DNA from: a bacterium
Lineage (GTDB): Bacteria; Desulfobacterota; Desulfobulbia; Desulfobulbales; Desulfobulbaceae
Direction: 5' to 3'
Assembly (NCBI GenBank): GCA_030538155.1
Contig: JAUNUN010000003.1
Span: 1 to 64,000, forward strand
Length of the DNA stretch: 64,000 nt
Positions 7,707 to 47,390 of the stretch are shown one piece after another. How positions within the stretch are numbered: the stretch's first letter is position 1; each line of letters opens with the position of its first letter. The translations under genes were made by a program, and so were the position numbers. The notes beneath the pieces were generated by a model. That model was not told the DNA's origin and did not search any database. It saw only the letters and a program-made list of their open reading frames with translations.

Positions 7707-9194
7707 CTAGAAGAAGAGTTGCGATACCGGGTAGCCGAGCACCATGTACAAAACGATGCTCATGGCAACGATGATCAGGCCGTAACGGAAGATATCGCCC
7801 GGATCGACCCATTCCTTGTTGCCGTAGAGAACCGCTGCATAGGGCGAGGCTGCCGGGGTAAGAATGGCGATGTGCAGGGCAAAGGCCATGACCGTGGCTG
7901 CTGCAGCCGGATTGACGCCGTTTTGCCGGCTGAAGGCATAGACTATGGGCATGAGCAAAACGCCCATGACCGCGTTGTTGGCAAACTGGGTAATGACAAC
8001 CGAGGCGCCGACTATGACCAGGATGAAAACAAAGGGGCTCTGTCCGCCCAGAATCGGGCTCAGGGATTCGGTGAGAAAGGGGGCGATGCCGGTGGCCGGG
8101 CTGGTAAGGGCATCGGAAACCACCATGGCCATGCAGACCAGAAAGTATACATCCCAGACAATGTAGCGGCCGGCAATGTCTTTGAAATTGATCACCGGCC
8201 GGCCGTCTTCAACCTTGATGAAGCACAGGATCGCCACAAAGCCGATAACCACGCCCCAGGGGCCCATCTTGTTGAGCAGGGCGACAAAGCCGATGGTTTT
8301 GGGCAGGATGCTGGGCAGGAGCACCAGGGTAAGGTAGCCGAAGAGCGAGGCAAAGAGGATCTTCTGGCGCAGATCCATGGCCGGCAGTTTGTCTTGCTTG
8401 AAGCGCTCGATGCTGATGTCGGCTATCTTGCTCATATCCGGGCGGAACACGAACCTGATCAATAAAGTGAAGAGGACAAGACTTGCCACCGACATGACCG
8501 CGCCAAAACCCATGTAGGGGAGATAATCGAGCCCCTGCTTGGCTGCCTTTTCATACGCGCCCACCATCATCAGGGCGCTGCCGGTAAAGGGCTTGGCCGC
8601 TTGGCCCGAAATGGCCGCGAACATGGTGCCGATGATCATGACCGTGGTGTACTTGTCGCCCTTCTTGTAGCCCACATCGCCCAGCACGCCGTAGAGAATG
8701 GCCCACATGAAGAGCAGGGCAGGCAAAATATTGGCCGAAAGCGCGGCCAGCACATAGGTGGTGAAGAGGAATATAAAACTGAAGATGAGCGGGCGGCCGT
8801 TGATCATCTTACGGGTGAGGAACCAGCGGCTGATGTAGTTGGTCACCTTGTGGTGCTGGATTGCGCCGAAGAGCACCATGGCAAAAAAGACCAGCACCGG
8901 CACTACATCGCCAAAGGCACTCAGGATGACCTTGCGCATGGGCGCATAGTCGGAAAGCCCCAGGGCAATGATGCCCAAAAGGCTGGGCCAGAGCACGCTG
9001 ACAAAGCTCCACAAATAGATCATGCCCGCAAAAATGCCCAGTACCTGCATGCCCACCGGAGTTACCGTGCCGAAAGGCGGCAGATGGCCGAAACCGAAGA
9101 TGAGCAGCAGACCAATAAAGCTGTGCATGTAGTAGAGGGTGTTGCCTTTTTTGACCGGCGGTGGCGGTGGCGGGGTAGGGGCTGCGGCTGACAT
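7707..9194 (-). CDS. DASS/SLC13-family anion permease (copy 1)
   Basis: A 495-residue membrane protein with about 12-14 hydrophobic segments. It has the SLC13/DASS pattern of two inverted halves: SANILPALLF and SGQAAKPFTGSA in the first, TQFANNAVMG and ILTPAASPYAA in the second. These NxxT/SNxA-like hairpins form the anion and sodium site in relatives that carry dicarboxylates, sulfate or related anions. A proline-rich tail (PTPPPPPPVKK) precedes the first helix. It lies 49 bases upstream of the sulfotransferase in the same operon, so transport of a sulfated or organic anion used by that enzyme is a reasonable inference. It is closely similar to the next permease. Confidence 0.88.
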   Translation of the reverse strand: MSAAAPTPPPPPPVKKGNTLYYMHSFIGLLLIFGFGHLPPFGTVTPVGMQVLGIFAGMIYLWSFVSVLWPSLLGIIALGLSDYAPMRKVILSAFGDVVPVLVFFAMVLFGAIQHHKVTNYISRWFLTRKMINGRPLIFSFIFLFTTYVLAALSANILPALLFMWAILYGVLGDVGYKKGDKYTTVMIIGTMFAAISGQAAKPFTGSALMMVGAYEKAAKQGLDYLPYMGFGAVMSVASLVLFTLLIRFVFRPDMSKIADISIERFKQDKLPAMDLRQKILFASLFGYLTLVLLPSILPKTIGFVALLNKMGPWGVVIGFVAILCFIKVEDGRPVINFKDIAGRYIVWDVYFLVCMAMVVSDALTSPATGIAPFLTESLSPILGGQSPFVFILVIVGASVVITQFANNAVMGVLLMPIVYAFSRQNGVNPAAAATVMAFALHIAILTPAASPYAAVLYGNKEWVDPGDIFRYGLIIVAMSIVLYMVLGYPVSQLFF

Positions 9195-9567
9195 TTGGGG
9201 ACCTCCTTTCTGCGTGGGTAGGCAATTCTAATTCATGAATACATCGGTCAATTTGGATGAACGGTTCATTTATTTTGATAACGATACCTAATTGACTCAT
9301 TTTTCGGAATAAAACAAAACAATAATAGTTAAGTTGAATTAAGTTTTTCTTAACTTGATCGAGCGGTTAAAGAAAAATAAGGCAGGCAGGAGGTGGCGGA
9401 AAACCGCTTGAGGAAGGGGAAAAGAGAAATAAGGGTAATGCTTGTGAAGGTCTGGAAGCGGTGGAGCGTTTCAGTGCCGGATCAGGAAGATGAGGGAAAA
9501 AAGAGGGGAAATGCGCTGCAGGCGTGCCCGGCAATATCCTGCAGCGCATCTCCCCAAGCGGCTTCGG
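9195..9567. other. Intergenic region between the two permease genes
   Basis: These 373 bases separate two same-direction paralogues. The only structure I can point to is the A+T-rich motif at 9308-9345, which also occurs upstream of the second permease. It probably holds the promoter of the leftward permease-sulfotransferase operon. Nothing else is recognisable. Confidence 0.5.
9308..9345 (-). promoter_or_regulatory. Shared upstream motif, copy 1
   Basis: On the minus strand this segment reads AACTTAATTCAACTTAACTA and continues into TTATTGTTTTGTTTTATT. The same 38-base layout occurs at 11122-11159 with about 30 identical positions. It contains two AACTTAA half-sites, with a third, inverted one just upstream (9346-9358). 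It lies about 115 bases before the start codon. A transcription-factor operator or promoter element is likely, identity unknown. Confidence 0.5.
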
Positions 9568-11037
9568 CTAAAAGAACAGTTGTGCCAGCGGATAACCCAG
9601 CACGATGTAGAGAAGAATGGTCATGACAACAATGACCAGACCGTAGCGGAGGATATCTTTGGCTTCCACCCACTGCCGGTTGCTGTAGAGGATGGCGGCA
9701 TAGGGCGAACAGCCCGGCGTGAGGATGGCTATGTGCAGGGCAAAGGCCAAAAGGGTGCCGCTGATGGCTGGGTTGGCCCCGTTTTCCAGGCTGAAGGCAT
9801 AGACTATAGGCATGAGCAAAACCCCCATGACCCCGTTTTGGGCGACTTGGCCGATAGCGACCGAAAAGGCGACCATCACCACGGTGAACATGAAGGGGGA
9901 TTTATTCCCGAAAAGCGGGTTCATGGTGCTGGTGAGGAAGGCGGCTATGCCGGTTGTCGGATCGGTAAGGGCAGCGGAAATGACCATGGCCATGCAGACC
10001 AGGAAGAAGACATCCCAAATCACATATTGCCCGGCAATCTCCTTGAAATCAATCACCGGCCGGCCCTCTATCTTGAAGAAGCAGAGCGCGGTGACCAGGG
10101 CAATGACAATGCCCCAGGCCCCCATGGTGTGGAGCAGGGCAATGATCGCGATGGAATGCGGCAGCATGCTGGGCAAAAGAATGAGGATCAGATAGCCGAA
10201 GAGCGAAACAAAAAGAATCTTCTGACGCAAATCCATGGGCGGCAGTTTGTCTTCTTGAAAGCGTTCGATGCTGATATTGGCGATTTTCGACATGTCCGGT
10301 CGGAACAGGTATTTGATCAGCAGGGTAAAAAGCAGGATGCTGATGCTCGACATGATAAAGCCGAATCCCATGTAGCGCAGATAGTCCAGGCCCTGGCCCG
10401 CAGCCTTCTCGTAAGCCCCGGCAAGCATCGAAGCGCTGCCGGTAAAGGGCTTGGCCGCCTGGCCGGAAATAGCTGCGAACATGGTGCCGACGATCATAAC
10501 CTTGGTGTAGGTCTCGCCCTTTTTGTAACCCACATCGTTCAACACGCCGTAGAGGATGGCCCACATGAAGAGCAGGGCGGGCAGGATGTTGGCCGAGAGC
10601 GCGGCCAGCACATAGGTGGTGTAGAGGAAAATAAAGCTGAAGATGAGCGGGCGGCCGTTGATCATCCTGCGGGTGAGGAACCAGCGGCTGATGTAGTTGG
10701 TCACCCTGTGGTGCTGGATCGCGCCGAAGAGCACCATGGCAAAGAAGACCAGAACCGGCACCACATCGCCGAAGGCATTTAATATCACCGTGCGCATGGG
10801 CGCGTAATCGGACAGCCCCAGGGCGATGATGCCCAAAAGGCTGGGCCAGAGCACGCTGACAAAGCTCCACAGATAGATCATGCCTGCAAAGATGCCCAGC
10901 ACCTGCATGCCCACCGGCGTCACCGGGCCAAAGGGCGGCAGATGGGCAAAGCCGAAGACCAGGAGCAGGCCGATAGCGCTGTGCAGGTAGTAGAGGGTAT
11001 TCCCCTTTTTGATGGAAGCTGCGGTTGTGGCGCTCAT
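9568..11037 (-). CDS. DASS/SLC13-family anion permease (copy 2)
   Basis: A 489-residue paralogue of the permease at 7707-9194. Long segments are identical (for example PVGMQVLGIFAGMIYLWSF and APMR-VIL-AFGDVVPVLVFF), so this is a recent tandem duplication or a pair kept by selection. Differences concentrate in the second half, including the substrate hairpins: GQVAQNGVMG replaces TQFANNAVMG and ILTPGCSPYAA replaces ILTPAASPYAA. That suggests altered ion or substrate preference. The start is supported by an AGGA-type site upstream. It has its own upstream motif copy and may be a separate transcription unit. Confidence 0.88.
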   Translation of the reverse strand: MSATTAASIKKGNTLYYLHSAIGLLLVFGFAHLPPFGPVTPVGMQVLGIFAGMIYLWSFVSVLWPSLLGIIALGLSDYAPMRTVILNAFGDVVPVLVFFAMVLFGAIQHHRVTNYISRWFLTRRMINGRPLIFSFIFLYTTYVLAALSANILPALLFMWAILYGVLNDVGYKKGETYTKVMIVGTMFAAISGQAAKPFTGSASMLAGAYEKAAGQGLDYLRYMGFGFIMSSISILLFTLLIKYLFRPDMSKIANISIERFQEDKLPPMDLRQKILFVSLFGYLILILLPSMLPHSIAIIALLHTMGAWGIVIALVTALCFFKIEGRPVIDFKEIAGQYVIWDVFFLVCMAMVISAALTDPTTGIAAFLTSTMNPLFGNKSPFMFTVVMVAFSVAIGQVAQNGVMGVLLMPIVYAFSLENGANPAISGTLLAFALHIAILTPGCSPYAAILYSNRQWVEAKDILRYGLVIVVMTILLYIVLGYPLAQLFF

Positions 11038-11387
11038 GGTGGATATTCCTTTCTGCAGGTTGTGCTTGTTTGTTTATGCCGGTCAATATGGGGTTATGGC
11101 TTTAATTTGCTCTTTTTACTCAATAAAACAAAATATTAATAGTTAAGATCCATTAAGTTCGGCTGAACAGGCAGGCTGTGCAGGGAGGGCGAGTACAAGC
11201 GCGGCTCCGGGCAGGTGCGGCCTCAGCGTGTTTCCTGAGCAGCTTCAAAACGTACTCATTACCGGGCCTTGAGTGGAGGCTCTTTTGCTCTCTCTTTGCT
11301 CTATCAAGCCGCTAATTTGTCTTGAAGAACGGCAGCAGGCCAAGTACGGTGCCGGGGCAAAAAACGTATGAATGCAGAGGGTTTGAT
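11038..11387. other. Divergent intergenic region between permease 2 and the peptide cluster
   Basis: 350 bases between a leftward permease and the rightward peptide-modification cluster. It holds the shared motif at 11122-11159 serving the permease. The rightward promoter of the peptide cluster must lie in the remaining 200 bases, but I could not assign clear -35 and -10 boxes. Confidence 0.45.
11122..11159 (-). promoter_or_regulatory. Shared upstream motif, copy 2
   Basis: The minus strand reads AACTTAATGGATCTTAACTA and then TTAATATTTTGTTTTATT, matching the motif at 9308-9345 in order and spacing. It lies about 85 bases upstream of the second permease start. Conservation in non-coding sequence beside both paralogues suggests either an operator under selection or a recent duplication that included the promoter. 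Confidence 0.5.
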
Positions 11388-11693
11388 ATGGAAGTGAAAA
11401 TCAGTAAAGATAGTGTCTTTCAGGTGGCTGAAGAGGTTTCCTGGCGGGATATCAAGGGTGAGTTGATCGTGCTGCAACTCAGCTCGGGCGAGTATTTTTC
11501 TTTTAACGAAATCGGCAGATTAGCCTGGATTTCTCTGGCCGAGCACAAGTCCATCGGCCAGGTGATCGAGGCGGTGCTGGCCGAGTACGATGTTTCTCTT
11601 GCGCAGGCTGAAGCCGATGTGTTAGCTTTTGTACAAGGTTTACTGGGAAATAAACTGCTTATCCAACAACCGGTTCAGGAGATACAACCATGA
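11388..11693 (+). CDS. PqqD-like leader-peptide-binding protein (RRE)
   Basis: A 101-residue PqqD-family protein. PqqD domains bind the leader of a ribosomal peptide and present it to modifying enzymes. Typical features are the strand pair LIVLQLSSGEYFSFNEIGRLAW (residues 27-48) and the helical second half ending in LLGNKLL. The start at 11388 follows a GAGGG site and excludes 22 unlikely upstream codons. Its stop overlaps the ATG of the precursor peptide (ATGA), so the two are translationally coupled. It is equivalent in size and fold to the lasso-peptide B1 protein. Confidence 0.88.
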   Translation: MEVKISKDSVFQVAEEVSWRDIKGELIVLQLSSGEYFSFNEIGRLAWISLAEHKSIGQVIEAVLAEYDVSLAQAEADVLAFVQGLLGNKLLIQQPVQEIQP

Positions 11694-11779
11694 AGAAAAG
11701 CTATGTCGCACCGCAGTTTTTCAAGCATAATCCGCTGGAATCCGTCAGCTCGACCTACTATTACTACTACTACTATTGA
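11690..11779 (+). CDS. Predicted RiPP precursor with a heptatyrosine C terminus
   Basis: A 29-codon frame that starts at the ATGA overlap with the PqqD-like gene. It begins MKKSYVAPQFF and ends in seven consecutive tyrosines (residues 23-29; codons TAC TAT TAC TAC TAC TAC TAT), then TGA. The leader resembles lasso-type leaders, with Y5, P8, hydrophobic F10, N14 in the glycine position and T22 near the cleavage site. If a lasso-B2-like protease cuts two residues after that threonine's register, the core would be about six tyrosines. The position between an RRE protein and a set of maturases is what makes it a precursor. The sequence repeat is close to a trinucleotide microsatellite, so its length may vary between strains. 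I know of no described RiPP with such a core. Confidence 0.8.
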   Translation: MKKSYVAPQFFKHNPLESVSSTYYYYYYY

Positions 11780-11905
11780 TCGTTATTGAGCACATTCGAC
11801 TGATCAGCTGTTCAGGCGCGCCTTCTCCTGGAAGCGCACATTACAGGGAGAACAGGAAAAACAGGGCAAAAACGGCTGTTGAGCGCCCAAGACGAGGATT
11901 TTTTG

Positions 11906-11940
11906 AAACAGGAGCCGGATGTTCGGCTCCTGTTTTTTTT
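11906..11940 (+). terminator. Strong intrinsic terminator inside the peptide cluster
   Basis: A 12-bp stem (AAACAGGAGCCG / CGGCTCCTGTTT) with a 6-base loop and eight Ts follows the precursor gene and precedes the kinase-like gene. It should raise the precursor-to-maturase ratio, with read-through feeding the downstream genes. This arrangement is common in RiPP operons. Confidence 0.88.
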
Positions 11941-11966
11941 AACCCTTTTTCCGGCAAGTTGGATTC

Positions 11967-13007
11967 GTGATCGATTGTGTGTATATCTGCGGCGTAGCCA
12001 TGCGCCTTGCAGGCGACAGCTCGCCTGCCCGTGCGGCGGTGGAGGAGATGCTGGCCTGCCTGCAGGCCTGTGATCCATCTTCCACTTCCGGTCTGAGTTC
12101 TCTATCTTCTCTGGATACGCCGGTTCTCACCCTGAGTGTGCACCAGCTTGGCCCGGATGCGGCCCTGGATGAACTTGTGCCGGGGTGGCTCCTTGCCCAA
12201 ATTGAACGCCTGGCGGCAAGTCAGGAGGTGGCGCTTTTCTATGGCTCGAACGGTGATTGCGCAGCACTCGCGGGCAACAACCAAGCCCTGTACTGTGCTT
12301 GGCTGAGTGCGGATGCAAGGCATATCTCCTACCTGGCCCAGAAACGGACGCAGGGCCTGACCCCGCTCTCTGTTTCCTCGGTGCTGGTGCCCATTTTACG
12401 CGAATTTTTTGCTGTGCAGGCTAAAGCCCTTGTGCATGCGGCCGGGCTGCAGAGCCCATCCGGCCGGGGCATTTTGCTCATGGCTGAAAGCGGCGGCGGC
12501 AAAACTACCAGCGCCCTTTCCCTGGTTCGTGCCGGGGCGCGGCTTCTGGCCGATGACCTGGTGGCGCTGATACAAAAGGGTGATCAGGTATATATGGAGG
12601 GCATCCCCGAGGCCCTCAACCTGACGCCGCAGACCATCGCTTTTTTTCCGGAACTGGCTACAACCTGTAGCAATCTACCCGAAAAAAGCCTTCTCCCCAA
12701 CGGCAAGCGCATCCTCAGGGCGGACGCGGTCTATGAAAAGGCCTATCAGTATAAGCCTTGCCGCCTGCATGCCCTCTGCCTGATCGAAGTGGGCGGCACA
12801 GCACCCGCATTGCAGCCGATTGGTGTGCAGCAGGCCTTTGGCCATCTCCTCCATGCCCACACCTTTGCCCGCGGGCAAAAGCCTTCACCCGGCGCCATCG
12901 CAGCCCTGAGTGCGGCCTTGGATTCGGTTCCGGCCTTTATCCTGCAAACCGGGCCGCACCCGGCCGGCCTTGGCCCCTGGCTCATCCAGGCGGTGGCGGA
13001 GTTATAG
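11967..13007 (+). CDS. HPr-kinase-like ATPase of the peptide cluster
   Basis: A 346-residue protein related to HPr(Ser) kinase. The C-terminal half has a P-loop, AESGGGKTTSA at 173-183 with K179, and an acidic LLADDLVAL at 193-201. The first 160 residues are variable. HprK-like proteins next to lasso precursors (paeninodin type) phosphorylate the precursor, and no HPr or PTS genes are nearby. Here the acceptor could be a serine/threonine (S18, S20, S21, T22) or a tyrosine of the precursor. The start is a GTG at 11967 with only a weak ribosome-binding site. An ATG at 12000 is the alternative. Confidence 0.75.
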   Translation: MIDCVYICGVAMRLAGDSSPARAAVEEMLACLQACDPSSTSGLSSLSSLDTPVLTLSVHQLGPDAALDELVPGWLLAQIERLAASQEVALFYGSNGDCAALAGNNQALYCAWLSADARHISYLAQKRTQGLTPLSVSSVLVPILREFFAVQAKALVHAAGLQSPSGRGILLMAESGGGKTTSALSLVRAGARLLADDLVALIQKGDQVYMEGIPEALNLTPQTIAFFPELATTCSNLPEKSLLPNGKRILRADAVYEKAYQYKPCRLHALCLIEVGGTAPALQPIGVQQAFGHLLHAHTFARGQKPSPGAIAALSAALDSVPAFILQTGPHPAGLGPWLIQAVAEL

Positions 13008-13054
13008 CCCACAGCCGGAATTTGATTGTATGATGCAAAAATCCTGAATCAGCC

Positions 13055-14557
13055 ATGAGTCAACCAGCCTCAGTACAAAGGAATATGCGCCACGATATGG
13101 AAACCATGGCCGCCCTGGTCGCCATGGAACGGCTTATGGCAGAGCGCAGCGCCGCCATTCCCCGGCTGCTGGAAGTCGTGGCTGATGGCCATGCGGTGCT
13201 GGCGGGCGCGGCCATGCGTTCGCTCTTTGCCCTCCTGCCCCTGGCGGCCCTGCCCAAGCGCCGGCAGGCAGGAGCCTGTGAACACCTCCCGCCGGCTTCT
13301 GCAAGCGTGCATGCCTTACCCGCCTGGATAACGGAAAACCCCTTCAACCTGGACGATCACGCCGCCTTCTGCCGTCTCTCTAGCGAGCAGTTGCAACGCC
13401 TGCCCGATACGGCCGGCCGGAGCGGTTTTCTGCGCCATCTTGCGGTCTTGCCTGGAGCTGTTGACGAACTTGCAACCTCGTTCCTAGCCGATGGGTTAAA
13501 GGCCGAGGCAGATGAACTGCGTCGCCATGTGGCTGATTTGGCCCGGCAGCAGTACCCGGAGCAGATTTCCTTTTCTCCGGCCATGCACTGCCAGTTGCAC
13601 TGCCCCTACTGTATTGCCGGTGCGGATAAGGGGGCAAATTTTGAAAAAGAGGCGCACGGCGAGCAGGTTCAGGCCCTGCTTGCCTGGATGCAAAAACACC
13701 GGCTCAAGCGCCTGGGTCTGACCGGCGGTGAACCATCGCTCTACAGCGGTTTTGCCCAATTGCTTAGCCAGGTACGGGCAAAGGGGATGGAATACTACAT
13801 GGCCAGTAACGGCCTCATGCCGGCGGATGCGCTTGCCGCCATCCTGGCCAATCCGCCCCTGTGCCTGACCCTGCACCTGACGCCGGAGGTGCTCTATTCG
13901 GATAAACTCGCGCCTTTTATGAAGACGGCAGAGCAACTGCGCCGGGCCGGAATCTATGCCATCCTGCGCTGCAATTTCGCGAGTCCGGATGATAATGCCC
14001 TGGCCTTTCTCAAGGTGGCACAAAATTGCGGTATCAGGGAGTTGCGCATTGCTATTCCCATGCCCAACAGCCAAAGGGGCAATAGTTTTGTCGATGTGGA
14101 CAGGCTTGCGGCCTTTGCCCCGCTTTTGCAGCAACTGGTAGAGAAAGCCGAGGGCCAGGCCATGCAGATCCAGCTTTCCAAGCCCTATCCGCTCTGCTTC
14201 ATGCCTGAAGAGGTGGCCTGGCATTTTTTGAAAAACGGTTCCCTGGCCTGCGTGTGCCCGAATCATCTGCTGGGTTTTTCCAACAACCTCATTGTCTACC
14301 CGGATCTGCGCTTTTCCGCCTGCCTGGGTCTGAACAGCCGCTCGACCATGCCCATTACCGCCTGCGCAGGCCCACAGGATGCGGCCCGCGTTTTCAGCAA
14401 CAATATTTCGCGGCGCATGCACCAGCCCCTGATGGCCCAGTGCCGTACCTGCCCGCTTGGAATCTGCGGTCAGTGCATCGGGGCCTGCCTCAGTTACCGG
14501 CCGGATGCGAATGAGGAAGCAGCCGCGCTCAGGTTTAGGCCCACAGGTGCGGCATGA
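13055..14557 (+). CDS. Radical SAM peptide-modifying enzyme with C-terminal cysteine cluster
   Basis: A 500-residue radical SAM protein. About 170 N-terminal residues of unknown fold precede the catalytic domain, whose CxxxCxxC motif is C179, C183, C186 (MHCQLHCPYC). The GGEP motif (LTGGEPSLYS) follows near 225. The C terminus has a compact cysteine group, C463, C466, C471, C474 and C478, the usual sign of an auxiliary iron-sulfur cluster in SPASM/twitch enzymes that modify peptides. It overlaps the next gene by ATGA. Reaction unknown. Cross-linking or other C-H chemistry on the tyrosine core is a reasonable inference. Confidence 0.85.
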   Translation: MSQPASVQRNMRHDMETMAALVAMERLMAERSAAIPRLLEVVADGHAVLAGAAMRSLFALLPLAALPKRRQAGACEHLPPASASVHALPAWITENPFNLDDHAAFCRLSSEQLQRLPDTAGRSGFLRHLAVLPGAVDELATSFLADGLKAEADELRRHVADLARQQYPEQISFSPAMHCQLHCPYCIAGADKGANFEKEAHGEQVQALLAWMQKHRLKRLGLTGGEPSLYSGFAQLLSQVRAKGMEYYMASNGLMPADALAAILANPPLCLTLHLTPEVLYSDKLAPFMKTAEQLRRAGIYAILRCNFASPDDNALAFLKVAQNCGIRELRIAIPMPNSQRGNSFVDVDRLAAFAPLLQQLVEKAEGQAMQIQLSKPYPLCFMPEEVAWHFLKNGSLACVCPNHLLGFSNNLIVYPDLRFSACLGLNSRSTMPITACAGPQDAARVFSNNISRRMHQPLMAQCRTCPLGICGQCIGACLSYRPDANEEAAALRFRPTGAA

Positions 14558-15594
14558 ACAAGCTTGAACAGCAAACGCATCTCTGGCTGCGCCGGAGCCT
14601 GGGCGCATATGCCCGCAGCCGCACAGCCATGGCGCACATTCCGGCTGATATCGAACCACAGACCCTAAGCCGCTGGGTGGAGGCGCACGGTCTGGAAGGC
14701 TTGTTTTACCAGACCCAGGATGCAGGCGGCGGCTTGGCTGATATTTTGCCGCGCTGGCGGCACAAGGCCATGACAGAGCTTCTGGCCAATCTGCGCGCCC
14801 TTAAAGCAACGGTTCAGCTCTTTGAGCTCTTGGATCAGGCGGGCATCGAGGCCGTGGCCATGCGCGGGGTGGTGCTAGCCAACCGCGACTATGCCTCGCC
14901 CGAGGAACGCAGCATGCGCGATGTGGATATTCTATTGCAGCCGGATGCGCGCCCGGCAGTACTGCGCCATCTGGAACTCGCCGGACACCGGCCCAGCGAG
15001 CGCCTGCGCAGTCAGGAGGTCTATAGTATTGACGGCGTGGTGCTGGAGCTGCACTGGTCGCTTTTAACCTCCAAGCGCTACCGGAACTGTATTGACGAGG
15101 TAAATTGGCTCAGGCAGCGCAGCCCGCTCCAGACCCCGGATGGCCGCCTCTATGCGCTGCCTGTGGAATATGAGCTCATCGGCCTGATCTTGCATGCCTT
15201 TATTCACCACGAACTGGGTATATTAAAACAACTGCTTGATATTGCGCTCTTAATGGATGATGAAAAGCTTGACTGGCCCTGGATTGCAGCGTGGTGCCGC
15301 GAAAATCATTTGAGCAGGATGTTTACCCTGAGCCTGCACCTGGTCAATGAGCTGTTCTTTCTTGAGGCCAAGGCCTTTTGCCGGCATTTTCCTGTACCCG
15401 CTTCTGGCGCAAGACGCGTACAGGCCTGGATCGATCCCTTTTTCAGCCGGGTGGGTGTACGCAACTATCTGCAGGTGAAAGGCAATATGCTCCATGCCGC
15501 AGAAACGCCGGAACGCTTGTTCAGGCAGGCAATCGGCTTTTTCTCTGCCTCGGAGCTGCGCGATATGCGAAGGCGTTATTTCAGGAGTGCATGA
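14554..15594 (+). CDS. NTP_transf_5-type nucleotidyltransferase
   Basis: A 346-residue protein of the uncharacterised nucleotidyltransferase family (NTP_transf_5). The signature lies at AMRGVVLANRDY (102-113) and SMRDVDILL (120-128), where D123 and D125 would bind metal. Members occur beside lasso, kinase-containing and other RiPP loci, but their substrate is unsettled. Overlaps with both neighbours (ATGA upstream, TGA/ATG downstream) show tight translational coupling. It might attach a nucleotide or sugar-phosphate to a group made by the kinase-like protein, which is speculative. Confidence 0.78.
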   Translation: MNKLEQQTHLWLRRSLGAYARSRTAMAHIPADIEPQTLSRWVEAHGLEGLFYQTQDAGGGLADILPRWRHKAMTELLANLRALKATVQLFELLDQAGIEAVAMRGVVLANRDYASPEERSMRDVDILLQPDARPAVLRHLELAGHRPSERLRSQEVYSIDGVVLELHWSLLTSKRYRNCIDEVNWLRQRSPLQTPDGRLYALPVEYELIGLILHAFIHHELGILKQLLDIALLMDDEKLDWPWIAAWCRENHLSRMFTLSLHLVNELFFLEAKAFCRHFPVPASGARRVQAWIDPFFSRVGVRNYLQVKGNMLHAAETPERLFRQAIGFFSASELRDMRRRYFRSA

Positions 15595-17810
15595 TGCCGG
15601 GCGAATTGCTTGCAACAAAGAACCACAGCAACCGGCAGCATCTGGACCTGTCCCACGAAGACGCCGTCTGGGCGCTCAATCAGGCGGATAGCCGCAGGCG
15701 TGTGCTTTTGGTGGCGCTCAATATGCCCGGCTACTACAGCTTGGCGGTGCGCCTCTTGGCCCTAGTAGTAGCGCAGGACAGCAGCCTGGCGGCCCAGGTG
15801 GATATCCGCTATGTGGAGGCGGACAACAACGCAGACCTGGCCAAGTTGGTCGAGCGTCTGGCCGGTTGGCGGCCCGATCTCATTGCCTGGACGGTCAATA
15901 TCTGGAACCGCTTGCCGGTGCAAGACCTGCTCAGGCGGCTCAGGCCAAGCCTGCCGCAGACGCTCTTTCTCTTCGGCGGCCAGGAGGTGACCAGTTCGGC
16001 CGTGGATTTCCTTAACCTGCTGCCTGAACTGGATTACATCATCGAAGGGGAGGGCGAGCTGGCCTTTGCCCAGTTTGTGCAGAGCTGGTTGCAGACAGAA
16101 GGTCGCGAACTGACTGATCCTGCCATGGTTTCCGGGCTCCGTTTCCGTAGGCAGGGGCAATCCGAACTCACCCGGCCTGCAGACCTGGTGCAGGATCTCG
16201 ATAGCCTGCCCTCGGTGATTCTTGCCGGGCTGGTGCAGCCGGATCAGCGCAATCTGCTCGGGGTGATGCTGGAGGGCTCGCGCGGCTGCCCCAACCGCTG
16301 CAGCTTCTGCTTTGAAGGCGGCCGCAGCGGCAGGGTGCGCAGTGCCTCGGTGACCCGTCTTGCCGAGGAGGCAGCCTTCATGGCCGGTCAGGGTGCGGGT
16401 TATTTCCACATCCTTGATCCCATCCTCTGCAACAGCAACCCGGCCCGGCTGCGCGAGTTGGCGGCAGTGCTGGCAGAGTTGCAGGAGCGCAACCCGCGCA
16501 CCGTCATTTCCGTTGAAATCTACGCCCACCAGGTCAGCGAAGAGCTGGCCGCCTGTTTGCAGAGCTGCACCATTGTCGATGTGGGCCTGCAGAGCACGCA
16601 CGAGCCTACGGCCCGCGCCATCCACCGCGCCTGGCAGCCCCAGCGCTTCCAGGCAGGGCTCGCCCGTTTGCGCCGGGCCCAGGTGCCCTTCAACATCTAC
16701 CTCATCTGCGGCCTGCCCGAGGAAACGCTTGCCACCTATCTGCAGGGCATCTCTGCCATTATGGCGGAACAGCCCACCCGCATTTTCTGCAATGAACTCT
16801 GTCTGCTGAACGGCACTGAACTGCGCCATCGTGCTCTGGAATACGGCTACCACTTTGACCAGAACCCGCCTTACCGGGCCTGGTCGAACCGCTGGATGAG
16901 CGCTGCTGATTTCCGTCTGGCCCAGGCGGCCTCCAAGGTGGTGGAAAAATACTATAACCTCACCAGCCGCGCCATCTACACCAAGGCCCCCTGGCTGCCC
17001 GGCCATGCACCGGAATACGGCGGGACGAGCCGCATTTCCCTGATGAGCCCCTGCAGCAGGCAATGCCCCGGCTGTGTGCGGGCAAAGGCGGTAACCACCA
17101 GTATGCCGCCGGACCTTGCCCATACCTTGACTGAGCTGGAAGACGATGATGTGGAGATTTTTGCGGGCGACCTTGTTGACCGAGAAGCCCTGGTGCAACT
17201 CATGGGCCGTCTGCAGCTCCACGCCCCGGCACGGCTGCGCCTGGTGGGGCCGCCCGAACTGTTTGATGATGCCGACTGGGTGCAGTGGCTGGTGCAGCGC
17301 GGAGTCTGGCATTTCCGCAGCTTTGCCGAAGCTGGTGAGGCGAGGCAGCCCGATTTGACTGCCCTCAGCCAGACCTGTCGCTTGACCGGCTTTGCCGTGG
17401 TTCGACCCTTCAGCGATATTGTGCTCCTGCTACCGCAGGAGCCGGATGCTGATGCGGATGCACAAACCTGTGTTTCCCTTCTTAATAATCTTGCCGAACA
17501 GGGCCTGACCATGCTGACCGTGCCAGCAGAGGCAATGGACATGCCTGCCTCCCGGCAGCAGGAGGTGGCGCTGCAACTGCAACCGCTGGTTGAACAACTC
17601 TCTTGGCTGCGCCTGCCCAAAACCATGCTGAAGATGGCGCTTGAACCTTATCTTTCCGGCCGTGGCGAGGAGCTTGACCAGATCTGCCGGAGCCTGCAGG
17701 CCCTTGGCTTGAGTAGCAGCGCCGTAAACCAACCACCCTGTTATCTGCCGGAAGATGCGGCCTCCATCAGCCGCAGCGCGCCCAGGCATCCGCATATACC
17801 CGTACTGTAA
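15594..17810 (+). CDS. B12-binding radical SAM protein with a second CxxxCxxC domain
   Basis: A 738-residue protein. Residues about 35-180 form a cobalamin-binding Rossmann-like domain (RRVLLVALNMPGYYSLAVR, IIEGEGELAF). The radical SAM domain has C232, C236, C239 (GSRGCPNRCSFC). Unusually, a further domain begins near residue 480 with SPCSRQCPGC, giving C487, C491, C494 in perfect CxxxCxxC spacing, and RLVGPPELF where GGEP would sit. That looks like a degenerate or second radical SAM domain fused at the C terminus. B12 radical SAM enzymes often methylate unactivated carbons. ATG 15591 is an alternative start, but AGGAG at 15583 favours 15594. Membership in the cluster is supported by coupling to the previous gene. 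Confidence 0.8.
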   Translation: MPGELLATKNHSNRQHLDLSHEDAVWALNQADSRRRVLLVALNMPGYYSLAVRLLALVVAQDSSLAAQVDIRYVEADNNADLAKLVERLAGWRPDLIAWTVNIWNRLPVQDLLRRLRPSLPQTLFLFGGQEVTSSAVDFLNLLPELDYIIEGEGELAFAQFVQSWLQTEGRELTDPAMVSGLRFRRQGQSELTRPADLVQDLDSLPSVILAGLVQPDQRNLLGVMLEGSRGCPNRCSFCFEGGRSGRVRSASVTRLAEEAAFMAGQGAGYFHILDPILCNSNPARLRELAAVLAELQERNPRTVISVEIYAHQVSEELAACLQSCTIVDVGLQSTHEPTARAIHRAWQPQRFQAGLARLRRAQVPFNIYLICGLPEETLATYLQGISAIMAEQPTRIFCNELCLLNGTELRHRALEYGYHFDQNPPYRAWSNRWMSAADFRLAQAASKVVEKYYNLTSRAIYTKAPWLPGHAPEYGGTSRISLMSPCSRQCPGCVRAKAVTTSMPPDLAHTLTELEDDDVEIFAGDLVDREALVQLMGRLQLHAPARLRLVGPPELFDDADWVQWLVQRGVWHFRSFAEAGEARQPDLTALSQTCRLTGFAVVRPFSDIVLLLPQEPDADADAQTCVSLLNNLAEQGLTMLTVPAEAMDMPASRQQEVALQLQPLVEQLSWLRLPKTMLKMALEPYLSGRGEELDQICRSLQALGLSSSAVNQPPCYLPEDAASISRSAPRHPHIPVL

Positions 17811-17819
17811 AGCCCTGCC

Positions 17820-18794
17820 ATGAATCTGCTCATCACCAACTATTGCAGCCGCAAGTGTTCCTTTTGTTTTGCTCGCTCCAAAATCGGCCAGGTGGAGAAT
17901 GCCGCTGCCGGTCGGCATATGAGTCTTGATCAGCTTGAACAGGTCATGGATTTTCTGGAACGCTCAGGCGACAAGAAGCTGCGCCTTTTAGGCGGCGAAC
18001 CGACCCTGCACCCGCAGCTTGAGGCCATGGTCAAACGGGCCCTGGAGCGCGGCTTTCATGTGCACCTTTTCTCCAACTGCATGATGCCGCAGCAGGTGGC
18101 CGATTTTCTTGCCGACCTGCCCCAAGAACAGGTGTCGCTTTTGGCCAATGTCTCCCTCAACAGGGAGGACAGCGCTCAACAGAAAAAGCGGGTGGAATAC
18201 GCCCTGGCAGCCCTAGGCCCACGGGTGCAGCCCGGCATTACCGTGACTTCGCCCGAATTTGAATATGCCTACCTGATCGAGCTGATCAACCGTTATAACT
18301 TTCGCCGCCGCATCCGCGTAGGCATTGCCCAGCCCATAGTCGGCCACGATAACGAGTACCTGCACCCGAGCCGATACCGCGCCACCGGCCGTGCCCTGGC
18401 AGCCATGGCCCTGGTCTGCGAGCGCGAGGATATTTTGATCGGCTTTGACTGCGGCCTGACCATGTGCATGTTTGAGGATGAGGAATTCGCCATCTTGGCG
18501 CGCTGCAGCGAGGGCTTTAAGACCGTCTGCCGGCCCATCCTGGACTTGGGGCCGGATTTTCAGGCCTGGCACTGCTTTCCACTCTCAGATGTGATGAATG
18601 TTTCTTTTGAAGCCTACCCGGACCGCACCGCAATGGTGCGGGATTTTCAAAGTAAAACAGCGCCCTACAAGAGTTTTGGCTGCATGCCCGAGTGCATGCG
18701 CTGCGTGTATCTGCGCCGGGGCCAGTGCACCGGCGGCTGCCTGGCCCATGCCATGCAGAGCTTTCATAAGCCGTCCGGAAACGCCGGCAACTGA
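17820..18794 (+). CDS. Radical SAM/SPASM-like protein
   Basis: A 324-residue radical SAM protein with the iron-sulfur motif almost at the N terminus: C9, C13, C16 (NYCSRKCSFCF). LGGEPTLHP follows near residue 58. The C-terminal segment has C288, C292, C295, C303 and C307, consistent with one auxiliary cluster. The start-proximal motif NYCSRKC resembles the second motif of the preceding protein (SPCSRQC), so the upstream C-terminal domain may derive from a gene like this one. It follows the B12 enzyme by 9 bases. Substrate is presumably the precursor peptide. Confidence 0.83.
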   Translation: MNLLITNYCSRKCSFCFARSKIGQVENAAAGRHMSLDQLEQVMDFLERSGDKKLRLLGGEPTLHPQLEAMVKRALERGFHVHLFSNCMMPQQVADFLADLPQEQVSLLANVSLNREDSAQQKKRVEYALAALGPRVQPGITVTSPEFEYAYLIELINRYNFRRRIRVGIAQPIVGHDNEYLHPSRYRATGRALAAMALVCEREDILIGFDCGLTMCMFEDEEFAILARCSEGFKTVCRPILDLGPDFQAWHCFPLSDVMNVSFEAYPDRTAMVRDFQSKTAPYKSFGCMPECMRCVYLRRGQCTGGCLAHAMQSFHKPSGNAGN

Positions 18795-18829
18795 TGCTGC
18801 ACTAATGCGTCCTGTTTGTCTGCTTGCAC

Positions 18830-19276
18830 ATGCCCCTGCTCTTCTTTGAAACCCTTATCCTACTCGTTAAGGCCGTGTTCATCCGGCGGCGTGGCAGTGC
18901 CTGCTTGCGTCTGCCCACAGTCGCCAAGGCCGCCATCTCAGCGGATAAACGGCAATCCCTTGTCGCGCACGTAAACCGACTGACCAACTTGGTGGCAGGC
19001 AAAAGCCGCCATGCCTGCTGGTATCGCTGCTATCCCCTGGTGGTACTGCTTAGGAAAAGAGGCGTGGCAGCCCAACTCAATATCGGCCTTATGGGCCTGC
19101 AACCCAGGCAGGAACTGCGCGGGCACTGCTGGCTGAGCCTTGAGAGCCAAGTTTTCAATGAGCTTGACGATGTTTCCAGTGCAGCCTACCCGGAATTTCT
19201 GGGAGATAACGGTTTTGGTGCGGCATACTGGGTCAAGGCGGGGCAGGGGCAGTATGTGAGCCGCAAATTTGGGTAA
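18830..19276 (+). CDS. Lasso-B2-like leader protease (transglutaminase-core fold)
   Basis: A 148-residue protein matching the lasso-peptide B2 family (Transglut_core3). The catalytic cysteine region CYPLVVLLRKRG (Cys at about residue 67), then AQLNIGL, then GHCWLSLE with the catalytic His (about residue 99) and an acidic patch NELDD behind it fit a Cys-His-Asp protease. B2 proteins cut lasso precursors two residues after a conserved threonine, so T22 of the precursor is the predicted guide. TTG at 18824 is an alternative start, and neither start has a strong ribosome-binding site. The final 20 residues are variable. Confidence 0.78.
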   Translation: MPLLFFETLILLVKAVFIRRRGSACLRLPTVAKAAISADKRQSLVAHVNRLTNLVAGKSRHACWYRCYPLVVLLRKRGVAAQLNIGLMGLQPRQELRGHCWLSLESQVFNELDDVSSAAYPEFLGDNGFGAAYWVKAGQGQYVSRKFG

Positions 19277-19393
19277 TAATGCTGCTTCGTCCGGCAAACA
19301 TTGCAAGGGTCACAGTGCCATGACGGGTAAGTGCATATTTTGAGATGCGTTTGAGTAGATTTGGTTGAGGAGCGGTTGAAAGGAGAGCACGGC

Positions 19394-20104
19394 ATGACTT
19401 CAGAAAGGCAGTGCGCAGTTGCCCGCACCGGCAGCGCGAGTTCTCAACCCGGCCACATTTTATGGCTGTGGCTGGAGTTTGCGCTTCTTTTTACCGGTTT
19501 GCCTCTTTTTCTCTTTTATTTGCAGCAGGGCTGGATCTTACCGTTTTTGTGGATCGCAGCCCTGGGCTGCCTGCTCTGTTTGTGGCGCGACCCCGTCTTT
19601 GACCGCTCCTGCCTTTGGCGGCATGGGGCTTTGCGCCAAGCCGGCCTGGCCTTCTATGGCCGGATCCTGGCTGCAAACCTGGCTCTTGCAACACTCTTGT
19701 ACCTGCTGGCGCCGCACCTGCTCTTCAGTTTGCCGCAGCAGCGTCCAGGGCTGTGGCTCATGGTGATGCTGTTCTATCCCATACTTTCAGTCTATCCGCA
19801 GGAGTTGATCTATAGAGCCTTTTTCTTTTATCGTTATGCGCCGCTATTTCCCGGGGTTCACTGCCGCATTGCAGTCAGCGCTCTGAGTTTCGGTTTCATG
19901 CACATCATCTTCCACAACTGGATTGCAGTGATCCTCACCACAATCGGCGGTATCCTCTTTGCCCGCAGTTATGTGCGCAGTCGCTCCATCGCCTTATCAT
20001 CCTGGGAACACACTCTCTACGGCTGCCTGCTTTTCACTCTGGGATTGGGGCCTTTTTTCTACAGTGGCGGCCTTGCTGAAATTCCCGGTCTTTTACGTTT
20101 TTAA
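19394..20104 (+). CDS. CPBP-family intramembrane protease
   Basis: A 236-residue membrane protein with about seven hydrophobic segments and the CPBP (CAAX protease / bacteriocin-processing) motifs: PQELIYR (residues 135-141), GFMHIIFHNW (H170) and WEHTLYG (H206). The first motif normally reads EExxxR; here it is Q136-E137. Members process or protect against modified peptides. It ends the peptide cluster, 117 bases after the B2-like gene. Start at 19394 is set by an AGGAGA site. It may remove remaining leader, aid export or give immunity. No ABC transporter is encoded in the cluster. Confidence 0.78.
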   Translation: MTSERQCAVARTGSASSQPGHILWLWLEFALLFTGLPLFLFYLQQGWILPFLWIAALGCLLCLWRDPVFDRSCLWRHGALRQAGLAFYGRILAANLALATLLYLLAPHLLFSLPQQRPGLWLMVMLFYPILSVYPQELIYRAFFFYRYAPLFPGVHCRIAVSALSFGFMHIIFHNWIAVILTTIGGILFARSYVRSRSIALSSWEHTLYGCLLFTLGLGPFFYSGGLAEIPGLLRF

Positions 20105-22737: not shown

Positions 22738-23080
22738 CGCATCCGCGACTCCGGCAGAATACTATGCCGCCATGTTTCTTGGCACTTCCCGGAACGGCAG
22801 AGCGGCGTTGCAAACTGTTTTTTCATGCCGTCTTTGCAAAAATACAGTGATACGCGTATAATAAGACGTTTGCAGGCAGAAACGAGCCTCCTGCCTGCCG
22901 GGTTCCTGGCAGCACCCGCCCAAAGGTAAGACTTTATCCTATTTAAAGACATATAAACACAGGCTTGCATTCACCTGTCCGTCCAGCATCGCTTTTTGCA
23001 TGGCATGCTGTAGCGGCCGGTTTTTGCACCGCGAGAGATCATTGCTCCCACCTACCATCAAACAACTTGGAGGAAAATTT

Positions 23081-23818
23081 ATGAAGAAAATCATGCTGGT
23101 AACTGCAGTCGCGGCCCTTCTCTCCGCCCCTGCCGCATTTGCTGCACAAGGAGTGCAGTGGGGTTACACTGGGAAAGAAAGCCCTGAAAACTGGGCTACG
23201 CTCAGCCCCGAGTTTGCCGCCTGTGCCGGCAAGAATCAATCGCCCATCAACCTGACTGAATTTATTGAGGCAGAACTCGCGCCCCTGAGCTTTGAGTACA
23301 AGCCCGGCGGTTTTGAGGTGATCAATAACGGTCACACCATTCAGGTGAACTACGAGGCAGGCAGTGTCTTCAAGGTAGACGGTAAAGACTTTGTCTTGAA
23401 GCAATTCCATTTCCACGCCCCGAGCGAAAACCTCATCAATGGCCAATCCTTCCCCTTTGAGGCCCACTTGGTACATGTGAACGATGCAGGCGAGATTGCG
23501 GTGGTAACGGTGATGTATAAGGAAGGCGAGGCCAACAAGACCCTGGCCTCTTTTTGGCCGCAGATGCCTGTAATGGCAGGTGGAAGCGAAAAGCTGAGCA
23601 ACACCGTGAATGCGCTTGATCTGATGCCGGAAAACCAGGACTACTTCCGCTTCAACGGTTCGCTCACCACACCGCCCTGCACTGAAGGTGTGCGCTGGTT
23701 TGTCTTCAAGGAGCCTGTGTCCATTGCCAAAGAGCAGGTCGAGGCCTTTAGCAAGATCATGGGTGGAGACAACAACCGCCCGGTGCAGCCGGTAAATGCC
23801 CGGCCTGTACTGCAGTAA
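23081..23818 (+). CDS. Periplasmic alpha-type carbonic anhydrase
   Basis: A 245-residue alpha-carbonic anhydrase. The signal peptide (MKKIMLVTAVAALLSAPAAFA) is removed near residue 22. Zinc ligands lie in QFHFHAPSEN and EAHLVHV (two His in the first, one in the second). The active-site wall is YFRFNGSLTTPPCTEGVRWF. It hydrates CO2 in the periplasm. The start at 23081 has a TTGGAGGAAAA ribosome-binding site, and the longer frame has no signal sequence. A cysteine pair for the usual disulfide is present (C51-ish and the TPPC cysteine). It stands alone with its own terminator. Confidence 0.95.
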   Translation: MKKIMLVTAVAALLSAPAAFAAQGVQWGYTGKESPENWATLSPEFAACAGKNQSPINLTEFIEAELAPLSFEYKPGGFEVINNGHTIQVNYEAGSVFKVDGKDFVLKQFHFHAPSENLINGQSFPFEAHLVHVNDAGEIAVVTVMYKEGEANKTLASFWPQMPVMAGGSEKLSNTVNALDLMPENQDYFRFNGSLTTPPCTEGVRWFVFKEPVSIAKEQVEAFSKIMGGDNNRPVQPVNARPVLQ

Positions 23819-33357: not shown

Positions 33358-33855
33358 TTATGCGCCATGGCAGGGGCAGGTCTCGCCTTTCGTTGCCTCG
33401 TGCAGGGCCAGGTTGGCCCACTCTTCCGCCGAACTCGGGTTGAAAGAGGGCGCGGGGCCCAGCTCGTGGATGCGGCGGGTAAACTCGGTCACCACATGCT
33501 GCCAGCGCTGGCCTTCGGATGCGGACACCCAGGTATACTCGAAGCGGCGCTCGTCGATGCCGGTGATGGGCAAAAAGCGCTTGAGCATCTCCAGCCGCCT
33601 GCGGGCGTAGAAGTTACCCTCGGCATAGTGGCAGTCGCGCGGATGGCAGCCGGAAACCAGCACCCCATCAGCCCCGTTCAGGAGGGCGCGCGCCACAAAG
33701 AGCGGGTCGATGCGACCGGAACAGGGCACACGGATGATGCGCAGGTCTGTGGGCTGAGTAAAACGCGCCACGCCTGCCGTATCCGCCCCGCCGTACGAGC
33801 ACCAGTTACACAAAAAACCAACTATTCGAAGTTCACGTACATCTTCGGCGGACAT
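33358..33855 (-). CDS. floxD: MvhD-like iron-sulfur subunit
   Basis: A 165-residue protein of the hydrogenase-delta (MvhD) family with conserved cysteines in FLCNWCSYGGAD, PCSGRID and GCHPRDCHY for a [2Fe-2S] centre. MvhD links an electron donor to HdrA in the bifurcating complex. The stop end is followed by floxC, and its first 34 bases overlap hdrA. The start has an AGAGGTG site. Confidence 0.88.
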   Translation of the reverse strand: MSAEDVRELRIVGFLCNWCSYGGADTAGVARFTQPTDLRIIRVPCSGRIDPLFVARALLNGADGVLVSGCHPRDCHYAEGNFYARRRLEMLKRFLPITGIDERRFEYTWVSASEGQRWQHVVTEFTRRIHELGPAPSFNPSSAEEWANLALHEATKGETCPCHGA

Positions 33856-35804
33856 AGGGCGTTCACCTCTGCAAGGATTTGATTATCGGTAAAATGTTCC
33901 AGTTGAATCGCCCCCTGCGGACAGGTGACCGTACAGATGCCGCAACCCTGGCACACGGTTTCAATCACCTCGGCTTTGAGGTTGCCGAAGCGGTCGGTAA
34001 CCGCCTTGATCGCGCCAAAGGGGCAAGTACTGATACACTTTTGGCAGCCCACGCAGCGGCTGAGATTCACCTTGGAAACAGCCGGGTCGGATTCCAGTTG
34101 CGCCTTGGAGAGCAGGCCCAGGGCCTTGGCTGCCGCCGCACTGCCCTGACCGACCGAGGTGGGGATGTCTTTCGGCCCCTGACAGGCCCCGGCCAGATAG
34201 ACGCCGGCGGTATTGGTTTCAACCGGTTTCAGCTTGGGATGGCTCTCCACAAAAAAGCCATACTGATCCGGCACCACCCTGAGGGTTTCACCCAGCTTGA
34301 CCGCGCCCTGGGCCGCTTCCACCCCGGTTGCCAGCACCACCAGATCAGCCGGAACTTCGACCTGGGTACCGGCGAGGGTATCTGCGCCGCGCACTATGAG
34401 CCGATCGCCTTTGGGATAGATCATGGCCACCCGACCCCGCACGTACTGGGCCCCGTATTCCTCCATGGCCCGGCGGGTAAACTCGTCGTAGCCCTTGCCC
34501 GGCGCGCGGATGTCCATATAAAAGACAAAGGACTGGGAATCCGGAATATGGTCTTTGGTCAGGATGGCCTGCTTGGCGGTATACATACAGCAGAAGCCCG
34601 AACAGTAGGGCCGATCCACCGAGCGGTCGCGTGAGCCCACACACTGGATGAAGACCACGTTTTTCGGCTCCTTGCCGTCGGATGGCCGCTTGATATGGCC
34701 GCCGGTGGGGCCCGAGGCAGAGAGCAGGCGCTCGTACTGCAGGGCGGTGATCACATCCGGATAACGGCCTTCACCGTACTGGGGGTACTTGTGCCAGTCA
34801 AAGAGATCGTAGCCGGTGGCCACCACAATAGCGCCCACATCCACGTTAATCAGCTCATCCTGCTGCTCGTAGTCGATACAGCCCACCGGGCAAACTTTGG
34901 CACAGATACCGCACTTGCCTTTTTGCAGCTTCATGCAGGTGTCTGGGTTGATGGCCGCCTTTTTCGGAATAGCCTGGGGAAAGGGGATGTTGATGGAGGT
35001 GGTGGTGCCCATGAACTCGTTGAAGGTATCCGGGCTACGCTTACTCGGGCATTTTTCCGTGCAGATGCCGCAACCGGTGCACCTGGTCCAGTCCACATAG
35101 GTGGCCCGGCGGCGAATGGTCACCGAGAAGTTGCCCACATAGCCGCTCACCGACTCGATCTCCGCACAGGTGTGCAGGGTGATCTTGTCGTGCTGGGCAA
35201 TATCCACCATCTTCGGGCCCAGCACGCAGGAAGAGCAGTCAATGGTGGGAAAGGTCTTGTCGAGCTTGGCCATCTTGCCGCCGATGCTCTGGTCGCGCTC
35301 CACCATAACCACATCGATGCCGCCGTCGGCGCAGTCCAAAGCCGCCTGAATACCGGCCACGCCGCCACCGATCACCAGCACCCGCTTGACGGTCTCAAAG
35401 CTCTTGGCAACCAGGGGGCGGTTGCGGCGCAGCTTTTCTACGGCCATCAGTACCAGGTCGGCAGACTTGCGGGTATTGTGCTCCTTGTCCTTACCGATCC
35501 AGGAAACATGCTCCCGGATATTGGCCATTTCAAACATGTAACGGTTCAGTCCGGCCCGCTCCACGGCCCGGCGGAAGGTGGGCTCGTGCATGCGCGGAGT
35601 ACAGGAGGCCACCACCACACCGTCCAAGTTGTGCTCGTGAATGGCACTGATGATGCCGTCCTGGCCCGGCTCTGAACAGGTGTACATGGAATCTGTGGCA
35701 AAAACCACCTCCGGAAAACCAGAGGCAATTTCCACCACCGACTCACAGTCAACCGTGCCGGCTATATTGCTGCCGCAATGGCAGATAAAAACGCCAATTC
35801 GCAT
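33822..35804 (-). CDS. hdrA: Heterodisulfide-reductase-like subunit A
   Basis: A 660-residue HdrA. The FAD motif GGGVAGIQAALD lies near residue 148, followed by several [4Fe-4S] motifs: CTGCGICTEKCP, CGICAKVCPVGC, CVGCQKCISTCP and CQGCGICTVTCP. The N terminus has ICHCGSN. HdrA carries the bifurcating flavin. In the absence of methanogenic CoM/CoB chemistry the complex probably reduces a thiol-disulfide pair such as DsrC and exchanges electrons with ferredoxin. Cysteine, not selenocysteine, is used at MYTCSEPGQ. Confidence 0.93.
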   Translation of the reverse strand: MRIGVFICHCGSNIAGTVDCESVVEIASGFPEVVFATDSMYTCSEPGQDGIISAIHEHNLDGVVVASCTPRMHEPTFRRAVERAGLNRYMFEMANIREHVSWIGKDKEHNTRKSADLVLMAVEKLRRNRPLVAKSFETVKRVLVIGGGVAGIQAALDCADGGIDVVMVERDQSIGGKMAKLDKTFPTIDCSSCVLGPKMVDIAQHDKITLHTCAEIESVSGYVGNFSVTIRRRATYVDWTRCTGCGICTEKCPSKRSPDTFNEFMGTTTSINIPFPQAIPKKAAINPDTCMKLQKGKCGICAKVCPVGCIDYEQQDELINVDVGAIVVATGYDLFDWHKYPQYGEGRYPDVITALQYERLLSASGPTGGHIKRPSDGKEPKNVVFIQCVGSRDRSVDRPYCSGFCCMYTAKQAILTKDHIPDSQSFVFYMDIRAPGKGYDEFTRRAMEEYGAQYVRGRVAMIYPKGDRLIVRGADTLAGTQVEVPADLVVLATGVEAAQGAVKLGETLRVVPDQYGFFVESHPKLKPVETNTAGVYLAGACQGPKDIPTSVGQGSAAAAKALGLLSKAQLESDPAVSKVNLSRCVGCQKCISTCPFGAIKAVTDRFGNLKAEVIETVCQGCGICTVTCPQGAIQLEHFTDNQILAEVNALCPPKMYVNFE

Positions 35805-35813
35805 TGCTTCCTC

Positions 35814-36698: not shown

Positions 36699-36700
36699 GC

Positions 36701-43869: not shown

Positions 43870-43870
43870 T

Positions 43871-47386: not shown

Positions 47387-47390
47387 GCGC

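Follow-up and report, generated by a model that had tools for sequence, protein, structure and literature searches.

A candidate RiPP pathway combining a tyrosine-tract precursor, lasso-type leader-processing genes and radical SAM enzymes in a Desulfobulbaceae genome

What does a 29-codon gene that ends in seven tyrosine codons encode? Such a gene (11690..11779) lies on the (+) strand of the 64,000-nt stretch analyzed here (the window; contig JAUNUN010000003.1 of assembly GCA_030538155.1, from a member of the Desulfobulbaceae), where an ATGA overlap joins its start to the end of a PqqD-like gene (11388..11693). The original prediction took its product for the precursor of a ribosomally synthesized and post-translationally modified peptide (RiPP), with the tyrosine tract as the modified core. 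We found the heptatyrosine gene, the overlap and all of the enzyme genes it had listed, including those for three radical SAM enzymes (here rSAM1, B12-rSAM and rSAM3), in place on the (+) strand. The evidence favors a RiPP pathway, to which we assign a probability of roughly 0.8, that would use lasso-type leader recognition and cutting to make a different product, with radical modification of the tyrosine tract. The encoded peptide, MKKSYVAPQFFKHNPLESVSSTYYYYYYY, has 29 residues, with a leader of approximately residues 1–21 and a predicted core TYYYYYYY (residues 22–29), and its heptad is the sole run of at least four tyrosines in any of the six reading frames of the 64 kb.

Conservation of the precursor and its leader

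The search proposed with the original prediction, for homologues next to these enzymes that combine a conserved leader with a core rich in tyrosine, proved positive. The precursor family comprises 14 genes with 13 distinct sequences in 13 genomes, i.e., that of the window and 12 others, so that orthologous loci do carry a precursor, and it spans Desulfobulbales, Desulfobacterales, Nitrospirota and Geobacter. Its members share the leader motif YxxPxF-xx-HxPLESVS (YxxP in 12 of 13 precursors and CxxPxF in one) and a tyrosine-rich C terminus, the tails including YYYYYYY, YYYYTYYYY, WYYYYYYYWY, twelve Y, YYYYTYV and YYSRYW. Because these 13 distinct precursors have a common leader and a tyrosine-rich C terminus and lie beside genes for a RiPP recognition element (RRE), a protease and radical SAM enzymes, the locus has the genetic makeup expected of a RiPP.

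Within the class of the window organism, precursors were found by reading the DNA upstream of relatives of B12-rSAM, true relatives of which occur in 5 of 258 genomes. Genome G045, of the same genus as the window organism and with a contig that matches the sequence of locus L030 (Desulfobulbaceae metagenome-assembled genome [MAG] JAAYIE010000080.1), encodes a peptide identical to that of the window; the G046 precursor ends in SATYYYYYYY, that of G014 is MKKTYVAPMFECHEPLESVSATYYYYTYYYY, and G089 carries two precursors in tandem, MSKLNYEAPQFTCHEPLESVSFTYYYYYYY and MAKLNCQAPQFTLHEPLEPAGYTYYSRYW. At L028 (4750-4955), tandem precursors have one leader and cores YYYYYYY versus YYSRYW, so that nature provides a test of core specificity within a single genome. 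Scanning species genomes with an rSAM3 alignment revealed further loci in MAGs of the Desulfobacterales (one MAG), Nitrospirota (two), Geobacter (one) and Verrucomicrobia (one), in Desulfamplus magnetovallimortis and, more distantly, in a member of the Lentisphaerae. Five of these genomes have precursors (ending in SQWYYYYYYYWY, ATVYYYYYYY, SAAYYYYYYYYYYYY, STTYYYYTYV and STTYYYYYYTYTYIW), and a profile search of the Desulfobacterales contributed three more, ending in STTYYYYTYV (with a slightly different leader), STVTYYYYYY and STAYVYYYYNW. The family is rare: it was detected in 2 of 395 genomes of a phylum sample, 1 of 296 Nitrospirota (with a convincing score), 1 of 277 genomes of the Geobacter class and 4 of 291 Desulfobacterales. 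A weak match in Nitrospirota genome G750 (E = 0.008) was rejected as a precursor, and no full-length B12-rSAM relative was found among plasmid records. The Verrucomicrobia locus (L036) begins within the kinase gene, and its genome yielded no precursor. The Lentisphaerae locus (L038), with an rSAM3 33% identical, has PqqD, B2-like and kinase-like genes, and no recognizable precursor was found there; its 9700-17700 region encodes a PqqD, a B2-like protein, two HprK-like proteins and several rSAM3/rSAM1-like proteins. On a 3.9-kb contig, a divergent relative with the core YVYYYYNW (L058, 106-3541) adjoins PqqD, formyltransferase-like and HprK-type proteins.

The nucleotide sequences indicate what is being preserved. 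The precursor genes of the window and G045 differ at 14 bases, all of them synonymous (three within tyrosine codons), and comparison with G046 (L029) gave 14 synonymous differences and one nonsynonymous difference. TAT and TAC codons are mixed, in an order that differs between homologues, with the frame and amino acids kept; past the precursor stop codon, the alignment collapses up to a terminator. We therefore conclude that the amino acid sequence of the leader and tract is what is kept. The possibility raised with the original prediction, that the repeat is a drifting microsatellite, is ruled out, since there are 14 synonymous versus 0 nonsynonymous differences from G045 and the TAC/TAT orders vary while the frame and residues do not.

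The leader also fixes a likely register for the core. In lasso leaders, YxxPxL occupies positions −17 to −12, and position −2 is usually Thr (PMC10368454); at the level of sequence, the leader described here matches this RRE-binding motif. When its Tyr is set at −17, Ser or Thr falls at −2 in 11 of 13 precursors, with Gly and Ala in the remaining two; the leader Pro and the tract are 15 residues apart in 11 precursors and 16 apart in the other two. By analogy with lasso systems, B2 should cut at S-x|T-Y, leaving TYYYYYYY in the window. Cores delimited in this way range from 7 to 13 residues, contain 3 to 12 tyrosines and include TYYYYTYYYY, WYYYYYYYWY, VYYYYYYY, A followed by twelve Y, TYYYYTYV, TYYYYYYTYTYIW, TYYSRYW, VTYYYYYY and YVYYYYNW. 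Asp and Glu are present in 0 of 13 cores.

Enzymes encoded beside the precursor

Four genes resemble those of lasso-peptide clusters. The PqqD-like protein (PF05402, E = 4e-15), a lasso B1-like RRE, has lasso PqqD models as its best NCBIfam matches, at scores below their cut-offs, and its nearest PDB sequences are the lasso B1 proteins 9x90, TbiB1 (5v1u/5v1v) and TfuB1 (6jx3); its motif WRD...L...G.Y..N is kept in 10 loci. The lasso B2-type leader peptidase (18830..19276; NF033537, PF13471) scores 35.8 bits against the NF033537 cut-off of 33, and C63 and H99 are invariant in nine loci. A putative HprK-type kinase with an invariant P-loop (11967..13007; PF07475, E = 7e-8) retains S175, G176, G178, K179, T180, T181, D196 and D197 in nine loci, and an NTP_transf_5 nucleotidyltransferase (14554..15594; PF14907, E = 2e-39) holds the place that PsmN has in lasso clusters; the two are fused in L031. 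PadeK phosphorylates lasso precursors, and PsmN, a nucleotidyltransferase homologue, adds a hexose to the phosphate (PMC9266682). By comparison with these, the kinase and NTP_transf_5 genes appear to fill the places of PadeK (or PsmK) and PsmN. The machinery resembles the chassis of a phosphorylating lasso-peptide system (RRE/B1, B2, HprK-type kinase and NTP_transf_5) without a cyclase in the window.

The three radical SAM enzymes complete the set. The SPASM-like rSAM1 (13055..14557; PF04055) has CxxxCxxC and eight further Cys that are invariant in a six-member alignment. The best-conserved member, rSAM3 (17820..18794; PF04055, E = 2e-17), retains C9, C13, C16 and eight further Cys in 10 homologues. 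The structures most similar to its model (pLDDT 80) are SuiB (Z = 19.6; 280 residues superposed at 3.6 A) and anSMEcpe (Z = 18.8), followed by SkfB, ChlB and PqqE, so the modeled fold is that of peptide-modifying SPASM enzymes. B12-rSAM (15591..17810; PF02310 and PF04055) is, judged from its sequence, a probable C-methyltransferase: the solved structures closest to its first 450 residues, by sequence and by model fold, are CysS and TokK, and its CxxxCxxC is invariant. For its C-terminal ~280 residues (460-739; window 16960-17810), no Pfam domain match was found; a Cys motif around residue 485, which reads CSRQCPGC in the window, occurs in five of eight members and is not confined to the Desulfobulbales.

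An accessory CPBP/Rce1-like membrane protease (19394..20104; PF02517, E = 7e-10) is encoded downstream of B2 and was seen only in the window and G045 loci (matches in L026 and L030 only). We re-set three starts by eye from the sequence: that of B12-rSAM was moved from a mechanical TTG at 15378 to 15591, where it forms an ATGA overlap, that of B2 was placed at the ATG at 18830, and that of the CPBP gene at the ATG at 19394, behind AAGGAG. The tight spacing described in the original prediction is not uniform and fails between precursor and kinase, where a 187-bp gap contains a strong intrinsic terminator (11905..11942, [+] strand; perfect stem and T-run). Direct folding gave −25 kcal/mol (z = −5.9) for the stem at ~11905-11936; the terminator scanner had missed it, probably since the stem absorbs part of the T-run. 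A terminator occurs at the same place in L029, in L026 with mismatches and, in similar form with a poor T-run, in L035; none was found in L027, L028, L032, L034, L046, L047 or L057. Such a terminator after the precursor gene would let the precursor exceed the enzymes in amount. Neither the Rfam nor the tRNA scan gave a hit in the window, and the promoter scan found no promoter-like site.

Among precursor-bearing genomes whose cluster is not cut by a contig end, PqqD, B2, the precursor, rSAM3 and a B12-rSAM are present wherever the contig reaches. An MsbA-type ABC exporter lies within the cluster in six loci (L027, L032, L034, L046, L047 and L057). A Kdo/WaaP-like second kinase adjoins the exporter in L034 (5833-6696) and L046 (11-832), and a protein of similar size stands at its place in L057 (5318-6211).

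Proposed pathway and rival explanations

How might these parts work together? By close analogy with lasso systems, the PqqD-type RRE would bind the YxxPxF...HxPLESVS leader and present the tyrosine-rich tail to the radical enzymes, and B2 would cut two residues past the conserved Ser(−2), freeing TYYYYYYY in the window. From their families, the two SPASM-type enzymes and B12-rSAM would modify several tyrosines, which are presumably the modified residues, most likely by forming bonds between or onto tyrosine side chains, by C-methylation, or both. The HprK-type kinase and NTP_transf_5 would then probably phosphorylate and further decorate a core hydroxyl (of Tyr or Thr), and, in most related loci, the ABC exporter would carry the product out. 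The family is most likely a rare, patchy RiPP family whose product is a tyrosine-modified, exported peptide. The RiPP reading of the original prediction is thereby supported, although it had missed the lasso-type leader register, the paeninodin/pseudomycoidin-type kinase and nucleotidyltransferase genes, the absence of acidic residues from the cores and the terminator. As a tentative extension, which we consider somewhat unlikely, the tract may become a ladder of linked, partly methylated phenols, i.e., a ribosome-templated oligophenol with a set length of 7 to 12 units and a possible role in binding metal or carrying charge outside these anaerobes; this would represent a new RiPP class with a homopolymer core.

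Several observations weigh against the proposed pathway. A homopolymer sequence reveals no residue pairing, so crosslinking is argued by family analogy. The kinase falls slightly short of the Pfam gathering threshold (32.7 versus 33.3), and no ABC exporter was found beside the window cluster. The enzyme set is not fixed, since no rSAM1 turned up at the Geobacter and Desulfamplus loci and the B12 enzyme of Geobacter has an identity of only 27%.

The lasso-type parts bring to mind a lasso peptide, or a lasso-derived macrolactam with a tyrosine-rich tail. The leader motif, B1, B2, kinase and NTP_transf_5 are all as in paeninodin and pseudomycoidin clusters, and L034/L048 and L035, alone among the loci, have an AsnB-like gene in the cluster. 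However, neither AsnB protein comes near the lasso-cyclase cut-off of 525 bits (their scores are 232 and 214), and both fit a generic asparagine synthase, no gene for the cyclase (AsnB) was found in the 64-kb window, and the cores offer no Asp or Glu as ring acceptor at core position 7-9, so a lasso isopeptide ring cannot form; we regard this explanation as scarcely credible. The terminator most invites a different reading, in which an open reading frame with seven codons for one amino acid, followed ~125 bases downstream and before the enzyme genes by a strong terminator, serves as an attenuator of the hisL or pheL type, the peptide having no function of its own. Similar terminators in L029, L026 and L035 (the last with a poor T-run) would fit, but leader conservation and the remaining loci contradict the idea: leader residues are conserved across phyla while codons change, the stretch from the open reading frame to the terminator is unconserved even within the genus, most other loci yielded no such terminator, some tails read YYSRYW or YYYYTYV, and the downstream genes are not for tyrosine synthesis. 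Attenuation is therefore very improbable.

Two further rivals accept that the peptide is modified. A PqqD protein, SPASM radical SAM enzymes and a tyrosine substrate follow the logic of pyrroloquinoline quinone (PQQ) and mycofactocin (PMC8326336), and the hosts belong to mostly anaerobic, redox-active lineages, so the tract could be trimmed to a small-molecule redox cofactor. We think this quite unlikely, given the very patchy distribution (5 of 258, 2 of 395 and 1 of 296 genomes in the class, phylum and Nitrospirota samples), a core tyrosine count that varies as widely as 3 to 12, exporters in most clusters, as for secreted peptides, PqqE and MftC model scores far below cut-off (23.6 bits versus 381 and 20.3 versus 265, respectively), and cores in which neither a Glu-Tyr (Glu-x3-Tyr) nor a Val-Tyr signature was found. 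Alternatively, the tyrosines may be only an anchor, the real change being epimerization, backbone cleavage or spliceotide-like tyramine excision. SPASM enzymes also catalyze such reactions, spliceotides are known to undergo excision of tyramine from Tyr (PMC8326336), and the epimerase EpeE is a further structural match to rSAM3, at a lower Z of 13.7; the Tyr-Gly spliceotide motif, however, was not found in the cores, and we judge this alternative unlikely.

Genomic surroundings and comparison with known systems

The neighborhood of the cluster is rearranged between congeners, because the block found immediately after the cluster in G045 (L030) is reached 23 kb later in the window (43377-51860). 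A change of genomic site between the two was thus only partly upheld, as the G045 flank matches this more distant part of the window. Elsewhere, the window encodes two adjacent paralogous membrane proteins of ~490 residues on the (−) strand (7707-11037), one of which alone passes Pfam CitMHS, a eukaryotic-type (alpha) carbonic anhydrase with a likely signal peptide (23000-23818) and, on the (−) strand, an HdrABC-like block of iron-sulfur and CCG-domain proteins (33822-37252).

RiPP precursor cores are normally varied, and distinct sequence directs distinct chemistry. A core of nearly a single residue type, kept across several phyla together with two SPASM-type and one B12 radical SAM enzymes, is a striking exception and an easy test substrate. 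It also suggests that a module for lasso-type leader recognition and cutting was redirected from forming macrolactams to radical chemistry, a point of relevance to the origin of RiPP classes. In the open-licence literature searched, neither a polytyrosine or consecutive-tyrosine RiPP nor this gene set was found.

The closest known relatives differ in what they make. The system resembles the phosphorylated lasso peptides paeninodin and pseudomycoidin in its split B1/B2, putative HprK-type kinase, NTP_transf_5-type gene, YxxPx[L/F] leader and small hydroxyl residue at −2, whereas its cyclase-free window, acidic-free core, three radical SAM enzymes and homopolymeric tyrosine core set it apart. 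With PQQ and mycofactocin it shares a PqqD-type RRE that guides a SPASM radical SAM enzyme acting on Tyr, but it differs in precursor, leader, tyrosine number, additional enzymes, export and patchy occurrence. Streptide-type C-C linked RiPPs offer the fold closest to rSAM3, that of SuiB, and likewise a SPASM domain, although sequence identity is ~12%. In SuiB, the RRE is part of the enzyme itself, and the bond formed joins Lys to Trp. B12-rSAM resembles the C-methyltransferases CysS, TokK and KedN5 in the fold and sequence of its first 450 residues, yet these act on small molecules, and B12-rSAM has an extra C-terminal region and scores far below the curated KedN5 cut-off. In the poly-cyclopropylglycine peptide pathway (PMC9062424), a radical SAM enzyme also modifies one residue type repeatedly in one precursor, but the residue and the enzymes are different and the lasso parts are absent. 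Against this background, we place the system among RiPPs of a known kind, with the homopolymer core and the lasso-to-radical rewiring as its new features, and it may possibly form a new class once its product is known.

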